64,000 bases of DNA from Phorcus lineatus (taxonomy: Eukaryota > Mollusca > Gastropoda > Trochida > Trochidae): the NCBI GenBank assembly GCA_921293015.1, contig OV121085.1:16083731-16147730 (forward strand), written 5' to 3'. Both the position numbers and the translations under genes were made by a program. Shown in pieces: positions 17,838 to 58,043 of the stretch. Positions within the stretch are counted from its first letter, which is position 1. Every line of letters begins with the position of its first letter. The notes below the pieces were generated by a model, which was not told the DNA's origin, searched no databases, and saw only the letters and a program-made list of their open reading frames with translations.

Positions 17838-18109
17838 GTGAGTGAGTTGGGGTTTAACGCCGCTTTCAAGATTATTTCACTTATATCGCGGCTGCTAGTA
17901 TTATTGCAGGGAGAAAGCCCGCAACACCATTGTGGCTATGCATTGAATCGGCTGGAACTACTGGGTGGTATTGCGCTGAAACTCAGTGCAGCATTGCACC
18001 AACCCCTGACTGCGTGTTGCAGATAAAGTTGCCGAGCCCCTGGCGGGATTCGAATCATGGACCTCTTGATCCGAAGTCGAACGCGCTTACCACTGCGCTA
18101 TCCCGCCCC
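17838..18109 (-). mobile_element. Family A tRNA-derived SINE
   Basis: Reverse-oriented copy with a perfect 12-bp target duplication, tatccagagaga at 17826-17837 and 18110-18121. The minus strand carries an A-box-like TAGCGCAGTGG and a B-box-like GATTCGAATCC, with one change from the copy at 53.4 kb. Part of the body (tgcggtgaaacctgcgagc) is deleted. The plus-strand frames across it are by-products. Confidence 0.93.
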
Positions 18110-30126: not shown

Positions 30127-30177
30127 AAAGAGTTAAAAGGAAAGATTGGCCTAGTAACGTCTAAGGGGCTTTTTCTG

Positions 30178-30223
30178 CTTGAGTGACTAGTTTCGTTCGA
30201 AATTCGAACTCATCAGACTGAAG
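30178..30223 (-). ncRNA. Hammerhead ribozyme (type I, minimal helix III)
   Basis: Read on the minus strand from 30223 to 30178, all invariant parts are present in order. Helix I 5' strand CUUCAGU is followed by the core CUGAUGA (30216-30210). The palindromic helix II GUUCG/CGAAC (30209-30195) comes next, then GAAA (30194-30191). A very short helix III closes it (A-U and C-G pairs around a 2-base loop), then the GUC cleavage triplet (cut after 30185). The helix I 3' strand is ACUCAAG (30184-30178). Helix I pairs at 6 of 7 positions with one C/C mismatch. The helix III segment ACUAGU is self-complementary, so two molecules could share a 6-bp helix. Hammerheads with tiny helix III that work as dimers are known from Penelope-like elements and animal retrozymes. 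I find no reverse transcriptase or GIY-YIG frame nearby, so the host element is probably non-autonomous or a remnant. Confidence 0.82.
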
Positions 30224-30400
30224 AATCAAAGGTTGCTCTCGTTATATACAGTTTTGACAGGTCACGTGACTTGTTGCTCCGGCGGGAGTCACTTCCGGTT
30301 GTTCTCCGTTGGAACTTTGGGTTAACTTCCGGTACCGCAAAAATGTCTAGGGATTCCAGTTATTGACTTCCGACAGTGATTTCCGGTTCGGCCAGAGCTA
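30219..30400 (-). promoter_or_regulatory. Core-promoter-like region upstream of the hammerhead
   Basis: On the minus strand the order is three ETS-type sites (accggaa at about 30379-30385, accggaagt at 30329-30337, accggaagt at 30291-30299), then an E-box (gtcacgtgacc, about 30262-30272), then TATATAA (30242-30248). An initiator-like TCAGTC follows with its A at 30219, 29 bases from the first T of the TATA word. The initiator overlaps helix I of the ribozyme, so a transcript starting there would carry the ribozyme at its very 5' end. These are motif matches only. Confidence 0.5.
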
Positions 30401-30688
30401 CCGATGGAGGTCCGTTTTTCGATTTTGATTCCATTTTATTAAGTGTGATAATGTGGAATTTTTATTTTCTAAGATTTTTTTAAAAAAATATGTTGATGTG
30501 ACAGGTTTATTTTGTCTTTAAGTATTATAATATGTGAACATAATTGTTTGTATGTTCCAGGTGATGGCTGTATCATATTTTTGTATAATGTGCAGACAAT
30601 AAAAAGATTTTTAGGACTGTCCACTAAGGGAAAGAAGACTGGTGTTGTTTTCTTTTAGTAGATTTTGATACATGACAAAAGTATCTTT
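30401..30688. other. Unassigned sequence
   Basis: Contains AT-rich runs, an acceptor-like tttgtatgttccag and an aataaa near 30600. No coding frame of note is seen. Confidence 0.4.
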
Positions 30689-30699
30689 ATATAAAGATA

Positions 30700-30965
30700 T
30701 CTACATTCAGGAATTAAGACTAAATTTGTACCTATTTCTAAAATTCCATAGAGTCAGAAAGTGATAACATATAGAGTAAATGAGATATGTATAGAATGCA
30801 TACACAAAGATTCATATAATATCCTTATTTGAAGATATTAAAATTAAAGGAATAAGACTAAATTTGTACATATTTCTTTAGTTCCATGGAGTCGGAAAGT
30901 CACACCATATAAAAAGTAAATAAATTATGTATAGAATACATACATATAGGTTTACCTAATATCCC
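30700..30965. repeat. Two-copy tandem repeat, period about 141 bp
   Basis: Copy one starts near 30707 (ggaattaagactaaatttg, tccatagagtcagaaagtg, atgtatagaatgcatac). Copy two starts near 30848 (ggaataagactaaatttg, tccatggagtcggaaagtc, atgtatagaatacatac). Similarity covers about 115 bases per copy. It lies about 480 bp upstream of the ribozyme on the minus strand and may belong to the same element. Confidence 0.8.
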
Positions 30966-31149
30966 GATGGTTTGGGGGCCCCTTATATTTTAATAAGGAT
31001 TAAAATATAGAGGGGCAGGTAAGGCATAAGGCCAATTTGTCAATAAAGTGGGAGTTTATTACAAAGGTATTAACTCTTAAAACAATACAAGATGTGTATA
31101 ATGTGAGAATACTGAATTGTATTCTATAAATAAATTTAAAAGGAAGAGC

Positions 31150-31460
31150 TTATAAGTATGGATTTAACTTGAGGATGATAAAAAGTTCAAAAGATTGGAA
31201 AGTCCAGGGTGGCACGCAAGGCATCAGAAAGAGAATTGTGATGTTCAGAGGTGTACTCTGGCCCTTATTCGGGGGGCTTTGTGGTTTAATCCTGCTGGAG
31301 ATGAGATTGTTTGCTTCTCCAGGGATGATCCCGTGCTTCCGGATCAGGTGACGCCTGGTATCATCTTTCCTGGTATATGTCATTTGACAATGGTGCAGGC
31401 GTAGGCTGTGTTGCCGTGGTTGACGTATGTCTTGACCCGAAGCCGAAGCCGAACGCATAC
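31150..31460 (-). pseudogene. Single C2H2 finger, broken by a one-base loss
   Basis: The minus-strand frame contains CQMTYTRKDDTRRHLIRKH, an excellent second half of a C2H2 finger (Cys, 12 residues, His, 4 residues, His). The codons for the first cysteine (tac gcc tgc) lie just upstream in another frame; one base appears to be missing between the two cysteines. A basic linker and a hydrophobic end follow. The region is richer in GC than its surroundings, as expected for a former exon or an element-encoded protein. The parent gene is unknown, and the position upstream of the hammerhead may be chance. Confidence 0.5.
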
Positions 31461-33332: not shown

Positions 33333-33648
33333 ATGGGGCGGAATAGTGCAGTGGTAAGCGAGTTCAGCTTCGGATCTAAAGGTCCGTGGTTCGATTCCAG
33401 CCAAGGGCTCGGCAACTTTGTCTGCAGTAGAGAACTGTTCTACACGCAGTCAAGTTTAGGTACAATGCTACACTGAAAATCAGCGCAGTACCACCCATGG
33501 TTTGCTAGTTCCAGCCGATGCTCGCAGGTTTCACCGCAATGCATAGCCACAATGGTGTTGCGGGCTTTCTCCCTGCAATAATACTAACAGCCGCGATATA
33601 AGTGAAATAATCTTGAAAGCGGCGTTAAACTCCAACTCACCTTACCTC
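33333..33648 (+). mobile_element. Family A tRNA-derived SINE, full length
   Basis: Forward copy beginning near gggcggaatagtgcagtgg with an A-box-like TAGTGCAGTGG and a B-box GGTTCGATTCC. It has the whole body and ends at ggcgttaaactccaactcac. A 10-bp target duplication acgtattttc flanks it (33323-33332 and 33649-33658). This is the best reference copy for the family here, and its tail cttgaaagcggcgttaaac resembles family B. Confidence 0.93.
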
Positions 33649-40761: not shown

Positions 40762-41083
40762 GAGTGAGCTGGGGTTTAAAGCCGCTTTCAAGATTATTTC
40801 ACTTATATCGCGGCTGCTAGTATTATTGCAGGGAGAAAGCCCGCAACACCATTGTGGCTATGCATTGCGGTGAAACCTGCGAGCATCGACTGGAACTAGC
40901 GAACCATGGGTGGTACTGCGCTGAAACTCAGTGTAGCATTGCACCCAAACCTGACTGCGCGTTGAAAAGTTCTCTACTGCAGACAATGTTTTCTCTACTG
41001 CAGACAATGTTTCCGAGCCCCTGGCGGGATTCGAACCACGGACCTCTTCATCCGAAGCCGAACGCGCTAACCACTGCGCTATC
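40762..41083 (-). mobile_element. Family A SINE with an internal 20-base duplication
   Basis: Reverse copy with an intact B-box (GGTTCGAATCC on the minus strand). The phrase ttctctactgcagacaatgt occurs twice in tandem (about 40970-41010), a private duplication. Flanking acagag on both sides is probably the remnant of the target duplication. Confidence 0.9.
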
Positions 41084-53362: not shown

Positions 53363-53670
53363 GGTGAGGTGAGTTGGTGTTTAACGCCGTTTTCAAGATT
53401 ATTTCATTTATATCGCAGCTGCTAGTATTATTGCAAGGAGAAAGCCCGCAATACCATAGTGGCTATGCATTGCGGTGAAACCTGCGAGCATCGGCTGGAA
53501 CTAGCGTACCATGGGTGGTATTGCGCTGAATTTCAGTGCAGCATTGCACCCAAACCTGACTGCGTGTAGAACAGTTCTCTACAGCGGACAAAGTTGCCGA
53601 GCCCCTGGCGGGATTCGAACCACGGACCTCCTGAAGCCGAACGCGCTAACCACTGCGCTATCCCGCCCCC
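53363..53670 (-). mobile_element. Family A tRNA-derived SINE, full length
   Basis: Reverse copy with a perfect 12-bp target duplication catggtataaga (53351-53362 and 53671-53682). The minus strand has A-box TAGCGCAGTGG and B-box GGTTCGAATCC. The duplication and intact boxes suggest a fairly recent insertion. Confidence 0.94.
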
Positions 53671-53682
53671 CATGGTATAAGA

Positions 53683-54335
53683 ATAACAAGGTGTACACTG
53701 AAATCTGATACTAAGAACGAAGCTACTGCATTACTAATTCCCGATCCTAGATGTCGATGTCATAATTACAGAATTTATTAACAGTAATTGAATCATAGGT
53801 TCACTTAGTAGCATTAATCAAACCTAGGCTTAATTGTTTAAGCAGAGAAGCAACGATTTTTTCTCTGATCTGGCAGTGAAAATTAACATAATTCTAAAAT
53901 AAGTAAAAGTAATGCGAGAAGGTATCCTAATTATCACATTTCATCACATCATACTTAAATTCATCGTAAGCTTCCTGTATACATTTTAAATCTACCAGAA
54001 GCATATGCAACAAATTAAGGAAGGGGGACATCCTAATGGGCTTCGTTCGTATAGGTATTAAAAAAAATCAATATTACTCACCAATACCTCAATAACATAC
54101 TTCGGATCTGTTCAAATGAATCAGTTTATCACTTACTAGACCCTGTCTAAGGGTGAATACAGTTGGTGAGGTCAGAAAGGCATATGTCCTTTAAAATGTC
54201 ATTGCTATGTGTATGTACACATACTAAAAAGAGTAAGAAACGGACCACCTTGAGTTTCTTTTGTTGACATTCGATTGCTCATCATGCACAAAAAGTTAAT
54301 ATTTGGGGGATCCTAAATTTCGTTGTTGAGTACAT
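53683..54335. other. Unassigned sequence
   Basis: Nothing recognised. Confidence 0.4.
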
Positions 54336-56245: not shown

Positions 56246-56900
56246 GTCCGAGTCTTCCTCCCTTGAAGGCTGTCACCAAATATGAACACTCTAGGTGCTA
56301 AGCTTTACGAAATATCGTGTTAACAATGTATTACAAAGTGATGACTGTGTCGTTTAAAGTCCACTGGTGCCCGAGTCATCCGCTGTTGTAGGCTGACGTC
56401 AAATATGAACTCTAGGTGCTAAGCTTTACGAGATACCGCGTTAACAATGTATTACACAGTGGTCAAAGTGTCGTGGTGCCCATGAAAATGAGGTCAAGGT
56501 CATCAAAGTCGACTGGCGTCTGAGTCTTCCGCCATTGAAGGCTGTCAACAAATATGAACACTCTAAGTGCACGTTAACAATGTATTAGATATTGGACAAA
56601 GTGTCGTGGTGACCTTGAAAATGACGTCATGGTCACCAATGTCGACTGGCTTCTGAGTCTTCCTCCATTGAAAGCTGTCACCAAATATGAACACTCTAGG
56701 TGCTAAGCTTCACGAGTTATCGCGTTAACAAGAATCCGGACGGACGTAGTGTCGTGGTGACCTTGAAAATGACGTCAAGGTCACCGAAGTTGACTGGCGT
56801 CTGAGTCTTCCTCCATTGAAAGCTGTCACCAAATATGATAATCTAGGTGCTAAGCTTCACGTCAAGGTCACCAGTCGGAGTGTTACGGACAGACGCCGCT
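56246..56900 (+). repeat. Tandem array of family F, five units of about 125-150 bp
   Basis: Anchor gagtcttcc-type words lie at 56250, 56373, 56522, 56655 and 56803. Each unit has the form: rttgaaggctgtcaccaaat, atgaacactctaggtgc, taagctttacgag, cgcgttaacaatgtatta, gtgtcgtggtgacc, ttgaaaatgacgtcaagg, tcaccgaagt. Units vary by deletion. The last one is followed by the terminal phrase gacagacgccgctgaattc also found in the single copy at 32.7 kb. Confidence 0.88.
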
Positions 56901-57395: not shown

Positions 57396-58043
57396 GTGAG
57401 TGAGCTGGGGTTTAGTGAGTGAGTGAGTGAGTTTGGGTTTAACGTGCTTTGAACACTATTTCAGTTATTAAACACGTGGATGACAAGCATCCAAAAGAGA
57501 GTGGACAGATCAGGGAGAAAGGGAACGACAGGATGAGGGAAAAGACGGAAAGAAAGGCATAGTGAGAGATAGACAACAGGTTTTAGAGGGACTCAAATTT
57601 AGTCTGGCTTCTACCCGTCGACCTGTCCAGCTTGGGTGTCCCTACCAGGAGCAAGTTAGCTCCGGCTGGCATAGCTCTCAGGGTCTCTGAAGCACGCAAA
57701 CCACCACACCACGGCAAGGTATTGAGTCCAGTGATGGGAGCTGGGGTTTAACGCCGCCTTCAAGAGTATTTCACTTATATCGCGGCTGCTAGTATTAATC
57801 CAGGGAGAAAGCCCGCAACACCATTGTGGCTATGCATTGCGGTGAAACCTGCGGGCATCGGCTGGAACTAGCGAACCATGGGTGGTACTGCGCTGACACT
57901 CAGTTAAGCATTGCACCTAAACCTGACTGCGTGTAGAACAGTTCTCTACTGCAGACAAAGTTGCCGAGCCCCTGGCGGGATTCGAACCACGGACCTCTTG
58001 ATCCGAAGTCGAACGCGCTATCAACTCTGCTATCCCGCCCCCC
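57396..58043 (-). mobile_element. Family A SINE interrupted by family B
   Basis: The outer SINE has an 11-bp target duplication tgtaaatttga (57385-57395 and 58044-58054). Its tail end (gtgagtgagctggggttt) is cut off at 57413 and the element continues at 57738 to the tRNA-like head at 58043 (B-box GGTTCGAATCC on the minus strand). The 324-bp insert is a whole family B copy. Confidence 0.94.
57414..57737 (-). mobile_element. Family B element inserted in a family A SINE
   Basis: Full reverse copy from agtgagtgagtgagtgagtt to ggtattgagtccagtgatgg. A 12-bp duplication of SINE sequence, gagctggggttt, lies at both ends (57402-57413 and 57738-57749). Target duplications of this size are expected for LINE-driven retrotransposition, which supports B being a true SINE-like retroposon. 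Confidence 0.95.

Follow-up and report, generated by a model that had tools for sequence, protein, structure and literature searches.

Minimal hammerhead ribozymes which are proposed to work as dimers have already been reported from Penelope-like elements (PLEs) (PMC7761336, in the text covered, citing Cervera and de la Pena 2014; Lunse, Weinberg and Breaker 2017). An element described more closely is the Poseidon/PAc PLE of Anolis carolinensis, which encodes a reverse transcriptase (RT) and a GIY-YIG endonuclease and carries its hammerhead at the junction of pseudo-LTR and open reading frame (ORF). The PAc copies end in a tail at the start of reverse transcription, and both target strands are cut and extended in vitro. 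This PLE is the one examined in vitro; its hammerhead cut only together with the protein of the element, ribozyme mutants inserted normally, and there were no RNA-seq reads starting or ending at the cut (parts of PMC11167929); a needed role of the ribozyme is therefore disfavoured. The Penelope element of the bdelloid rotifer Adineta vaga has a pseudo-LTR with TATA box and initiator-like sequence, mostly head-to-head inverted copies, a tail and target-site duplications (parts of PMC3846280). Metazoan non-LTR retrozymes, in turn, consist of short tandem repeats with canonical type I hammerheads and have no RT relatives by sequence (parts of PMC7229834).

Here a 64,000-nucleotide stretch of the Phorcus lineatus genome (contig OV121085.1), called the window, was analysed in which an earlier note had recognised a hammerhead. 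The motif represents, with a probability of about 0.85, the minimal type I hammerhead of a PLE, placed in the pseudo-LTR with a TATA/initiator core promoter on one side and the tail on the other; in intact relatives it would work via a dimer. A dimer-type PLE hammerhead is, going by the portions of the literature covered, a known kind, of which the window motif is a further case: a minimal type I core, a nearly absent helix III, the pseudo-LTR and the proposed dimer are common to both. In contrast, a motif at a predicted transcription start and an insertion starting at the cut do not occur in the covered text of PMC7761336. PAc and the family of the window both combine an RT and GIY-YIG element, a hammerhead in the pseudo-LTR and copies ending in a tail; however, the ORF of PAc starts at stem II with the cut 26 bp inside it (parts of PMC11167929), whereas in the window's family the ATG within CUGAUGA meets a stop in helix III (locus L009). 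The same family resembles the Adineta vaga Penelope in its TATA/initiator-like pseudo-LTR, head-to-head copies, tail and target-site duplications but differs in having a hammerhead, which the covered main text of PMC3846280 does not mention. With the retrozymes the window has in common a type I hammerhead in an animal genome (parts of PMC7229834). Terminons, finally, are telomere-attached PLEs with hammerheads that lack an endonuclease, whereas the relatives of the window do possess one.

The hammerhead motif and its conservation

According to sequence and core pattern, a complete minimal type I hammerhead motif lies on the minus strand at 30178–30223, comprising the core and the 7-nt strands of helix I. 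Minus strand positions 30216–30185 read CTGATGA-GTTCGAATTTCGAAC-GAAA-CTAG-TC. The CTGATGA of the core (30216–30210) is followed by helix II with its loop (GTTCGAATTTCGAAC, 30195–30209), the GAAA of the core (30194–30191) and the palindrome ACTAGT (30186–30191), all on this strand. By script count helix II has 6 bp (with a seventh pair the loop would shrink to 1 nt), and helix I is paired at 6 of 7 positions. Helix III consists in cis of 2 bp with a 2-nt loop; ACUAGU is self-complementary and would provide a 6-bp helix in a dimer. GTC ends at 30185, and the position after GUC in the hammerhead family places the predicted cut between 30185 and 30184, where a sister insertion (L102) starts at the matching position. 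A CUGAUGA ... GAAA ... UH core, three helices and an open helix I, recognised in the sequence and by the covariance model R1 described below, correspond to type I, and a palindromic helix III of about 2 bp that gains a full helix in the dimer corresponds to the minimal dimeric hammerheads of PLEs. The earlier description, with all core elements in register on the minus strand, helix I paired at 6 of 7 positions and a helix III of two pairs with a 2-base loop, proved exact.

The genome containing the window (957.8 Mb, 74 contigs) was searched. Its mitochondrial COX1 is read with the invertebrate mitochondrial code and has a molluscan appearance. The hammerhead pattern gave 85 matches compared to 6 for a reversed-pattern control, and a looser version 93 compared to 8. 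An 83-bp query around the motif has at least 17 matches, the window included. Among the 85 matches 56 have a six-nucleotide helix III; removal of the window's own family, near relatives and duplicates left 34 sequences, and the covariance model R1 consists of these 34 hammerheads of other families. Applied to the window, R1 found the motif at 30179–30222 with 54.9 bits and an E-value of 2e-16 (roughly calibrated), the sole further match up to E 10 having 11.3 bits. The motif is beyond chance because of the R1 match and the genome counts of 85 against 6. A chance resemblance could point to the loose core pattern, which occurs once in the window with 0.26 expected and also in 18 of 100 shuffled windows, a weak test alone; the genomic copies, the excess over both reversed controls and the R1 score have already refuted this explanation. 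At the level of sequence the motif is thus confirmed as a real hammerhead.

The Rfam models, on the other hand, remained below threshold. Rfam detected no hammerhead in the whole window at the gathering threshold or at E ≤ 5, and none at E ≤ 10 in 1001 bp around the motif; RF00163 reached 18.2 bits (E 0.028) on a 101-bp stretch only, below its gathering score of 34. At gathering, six loci gave 0 Rfam matches. The covariance-model search suggested for the region 30150–30250 was hence successful with the model from the own genome and stayed sub-threshold with Rfam.

Two further groups of sequences came up in these searches. A second hammerhead class (L053 1492–1543 and similar sequences) has a 5-bp helix III of the type ACAGC-TG-GCTGT, without a TATA box at a fixed distance; the best Rfam match of the L053 stretch is RF02275 (23.5 bits; gathering score 52). 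Eight matches of the looser pattern, CTGATGA...TGAAACCGGTC, are without the usual first pair of helix II and belong either to an additional family or to repeats of a different kind (G000:C1:33853941, C2:40307473, C12:5756164, C12:38569046, C12:42006990, C29:44404215, C39:17891540, C1:16241124).

In the 34 sequences of other families 90.0% of the cells are paired compared to 85.6 after shuffling, the covariation score amounts to 0.146 compared to 0.087, and 19 cells are changed on both sides compared to 6.9; for each of these measures 0 of 500 shuffles were as high. The other two of the five measures do not exceed the shuffles, namely how many pairs are changed on both sides (4 among the 34 sequences, reached by 47 of 500 shuffles) and how many further pair types occur (6, reached by 495 of 500). 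Most of the classical covariation sits in helix II, which has a paired fraction of 0.89 compared to 0.78 in shuffles (0 of 10000 as high) and shows compensatory changes of C-G to U-A in 4 of 34 and of C-G to A-U in 1 of 34 sequences. Helix I, however, holds poorly, with 78.4% of cells paired and the third pair missing in 15 of 34; past the third, its pairs are found chiefly within the family of the window and are not common to families. Compensatory changes in other genomic copies, which had been named for helices I and II, were accordingly found in helix II and in the centre of the palindrome, and weakly in helix I.

This palindrome centre is unpaired in the monomer and nevertheless self-complementary (Watson-Crick) in 50 of the 56 six-nucleotide hammerheads and in 38 of 44 distinct ones, as the idea of a dimer-ready helix III would have it. 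ACTAGT (29), ACCGGT (21) and other forms (6) make up the 56, and within the 34 the centre is UA in 16, CG in 12, UG in 1 and another combination in 5. A palindrome that is kept while both bases change is what a dimer contact would predict. The change from UA to CG may be a single old event, because the two forms of the palindrome sit in different families. The catalytic core is invariant in the alignment, partly as a consequence of the search pattern. In free energy folding neither the monomer nor the dimer preferred the hammerhead fold; the window dimer of lowest energy is a long helix II duplex.

The surrounding Penelope-like element

Downstream of the motif the sister loci L015 and L022 have a coding region of about 3.2 kb that is interrupted by frameshifts or stop codons, and L016 is similar. 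Separate pieces of L015 yielded Pfam matches over the cut-off to RVT_1 (5.4e-10) and GIY-YIG (5.4e-7), which fits the combination of a telomerase-like RT and a GIY-YIG endonuclease expected of a PLE; the 3' tail and the inverted head-to-head arrangement of PLEs are likewise present in sister copies. The sequence comparison therefore assigns the window motif to a PLE. Window DNA is related to L015 over 150 bp (87%) and to L016 over 232 bp (84%). In L015, L016 and L022 the hammerhead is situated in a pseudo-LTR just upstream of the RT and GIY-YIG coding sequence, and the window copy keeps only the non-coding part. Other hammerhead families of the same genome also have PLE coding sequence within 1.5 kb. 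A tblastn search of the window with coding pieces of three sister PLE copies gave a best E-value of 0.47, and this match is the non-coding tail itself (30160–30122). The statement that no RT frame accompanies the motif was therefore right, and the RT is missing because the window copy is a fragment whose sister copies have one.

Retrozymes had been named beside PLEs as a possible context, and the latter part of the proposal stood. As a non-autonomous non-LTR retrozyme the window copy would spread in the form of small RNA circles cut by the ribozyme. The copy contains indeed no coding sequence, mussel retrozymes with type I hammerheads have been reported (parts of PMC7229834), and the second hammerhead class with its 5-bp helix III, found in the same genome, accounts for 25 of the 29 matches whose helix III is not of six nucleotides. 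However, retrozymes are tandem repeats of about 170–400 bp with a canonical type I hammerhead, and neither an array near 30.2 kb nor a canonical helix III was found. Moreover, the sequence is part of a PLE pseudo-LTR common to coding copies, contains a TATA box and terminates at the tail of the PLE, all of which makes a retrozyme improbable.

The window copy is best described as an old, 5'-truncated insertion composed of pseudo-LTR, ribozyme and tail without the coding part. The upstream part of the pseudo-LTR extends on the minus strand over 30225–31270 and is common to sister copies; a locus on C29 matches positions 465–1044 of the upstream query at 80% and 4–442 at 71%. This match ends at about 31267, and a far end of the upstream part was not found. 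On the other side the tail (30130–30184, minus strand) forms the 3' end of the insertion and terminates, like the sister insertions, at AACTC, directly after which the target-site duplications of L010–L014 start. The window copy adjoins a dispersed tRNA-headed repeat without its head (30127–29982). Exact and near-match searches revealed no target-site duplication for the window copy; one of these searches gave three matches, namely the site itself and two copies of the dispersed repeat. In the 46 nt of the motif 1 of 46 sites differs from L010 and in the flanks 12 of 103, and the flanks are 11–18% different from most sister copies compared.

For the window itself this describes an ordinary old transposon fragment. 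It is rather probable that the copy is a dead relic, the former ribozyme of a PLE which is now neither transcribed nor active: it has the diverged flanks just mentioned, no RT and no remaining duplication. On the other side, every core nucleotide and pair is intact and the TATA box is present. A dead relic is compatible with the best explanation, a dimer-dependent PLE hammerhead, which concerns the intact relatives.

The tRNA-headed, SINE-like repeat also occurs at 53440–53700, 57807–58043, 33335–33569, 40835–41083 and 17913–18109 of the window and in other pieces, and the two Rfam tRNA matches in the window lie in its head. A tandem array with periods of 121 and 133 bp is located at 56248–56852.

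Promoter, insertion starts and proposed working

A TATATAA box is present on the minus strand at 30242–30248, its first T being 32 bp upstream of the core. TATAWA occurs at −37 to −30 from the C of the core in 37 of the 56 six-nucleotide hammerheads (19 at −34, 17 at −35 and one, that of the window, at −32), with 24 distinct spacer sequences. In the other hammerhead matches a TATA box at −37 to −30 was found in 2 of 29, and in control offsets further upstream of the 56 in 1 of 336. Directly before the core 28 of the 56 possess CAGT, which is initiator-like and in the window comprises 30217–30220 (minus strand); its A at 30219, also part of the 5' strand of helix I, is the predicted transcription start as judged from TATA spacing and sister insertion starts. 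From TATA to this A there are 29–32 bp, which is the usual distance between a TATA box and the start. With TATA 32–35 bp upstream of the core, transcription should therefore start at helix I. A hammerhead at a predicted transcription start is not described in those parts of the literature that were searched, and no priority is claimed for it.

Several insertions start at the predicted start or within 3 nt of it (L022, L023, L024, L047). L022 begins at AGTCTGATGA behind an inverted tail and has a target-site duplication, L024 and L047 begin at (T)CTGATGA and both have one as well, and L023 begins at CTGATGA. No target-site duplication was found at the locus which L023 and L026 share, nor in L074. 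Copies starting at CTGATGA or helix I also show that uncut RNA is copied.

Depending on the copy, the ATG within CUGAUGA opens different frames. The frame is stopped in helix III where the palindrome gives ACTAG in frame (16 of 56, as in L009), and is open through the 70 nt read in 20 of 56, e.g. in copies with ACCGGT (L035, L029, L052); the ORF of the lizard PLE begins at this place.

A script check for target-site duplications covered ten loci. L010–L014 are head-to-head insertions with duplications of 13–15 bp, in which the left part is an inverted segment from the 3' end of the coding sequence and the right part consists of pseudo-LTR, ribozyme and tail; an inverted upstream piece exists in 7 of the 17 loci L009–L025 (L010–L014, L016 and L020). 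A different case is L102, an insertion of about 60 bp that extends from (A)CTCAAGC, starting with the base that follows the predicted cut, to the tail. It sits between TCATCGCATAGTA and TCATCGCAAAGTA, a target-site duplication, and the bracketed A may be part of the insertion or of the flank. In one further match the start is the second base after the cut (C25:24962747), as known from the BLAST match start alone. Four BLAST surveys of copies in the own genome gave starts at the first or second base after the cut in 1 of 30, 1 of 40, 0 of 28 and 0 of 22 rows; where relatives have diverged upstream, a local match does not begin where the copy itself begins, and reliance was therefore placed only on loci whose letters and duplications were examined. 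One or two starts at the cut among many truncated copies may be coincidence. Otherwise, the start of L102 would be a fossil of a ribozyme-cut template.

A TATA box and an initiator-like sequence at a fixed distance raise the question whether the motif is kept as DNA, its role being that of a core promoter including downstream promoter elements rather than that of a ribozyme. This is hardly likely. The weak helix I and a cleavage that is predicted would agree with such a DNA element; yet helix II and the palindrome centre show compensatory changes, the catalytic core has no variation in 34 sequences (partly imposed by the search pattern) and the insertion L102 starts at the cut site, all of which argues against it.

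The favoured reading, a PLE hammerhead that depends on dimers, would work as follows. In intact relatives RNA polymerase II would start at the A of cAGUCUGAUGA, so that each own RNA would bear the ribozyme at its very 5' end. A single ribozyme with a 3-bp helix I and a 2-bp helix III would be weak. Pairing via the palindrome ACUAGU could take place between two separate RNAs or between tandem units within a single RNA, and the two partners would then cut each other after GUC. Cutting would take the first ~35 nt off the own transcripts and separate the units of read-through transcripts. Most likely the ribozyme would trim or separate the RNAs of the PLE as soon as two motif copies pair. If the RNA does start at helix I, the ribozyme of own transcripts would need a dimer or some help in order to act, and the 5' end of its product would lie at a fixed point some 35 nt into the RNA, so that mapping of RNA 5' ends could test the role.

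A more far-reaching variant, tentative and rather unlikely, treats the hammerhead as fused to the core promoter. Own transcripts, whose first nucleotides would form the 5' strand of helix I, would begin with half a hammerhead that is completed only by a second RNA through the palindrome. The palindrome would serve as a dimer-linkage signal bringing two RNAs to a dimeric RT/endonuclease; each of the RNAs would serve one target strand, and the observed head-to-head insertions would be the result. Capped 5' ends would be lost when the dimer is cut, and the cut RNA would sometimes be used as template, as in L102.

Another arrangement was observed in L103 (G000:C19:42314640-42314960), where two element copies, both with their start in helix II, alternate with a flank of about 57 bp that is likewise repeated; either the target duplication is a long one, or a tandem duplication took place later.
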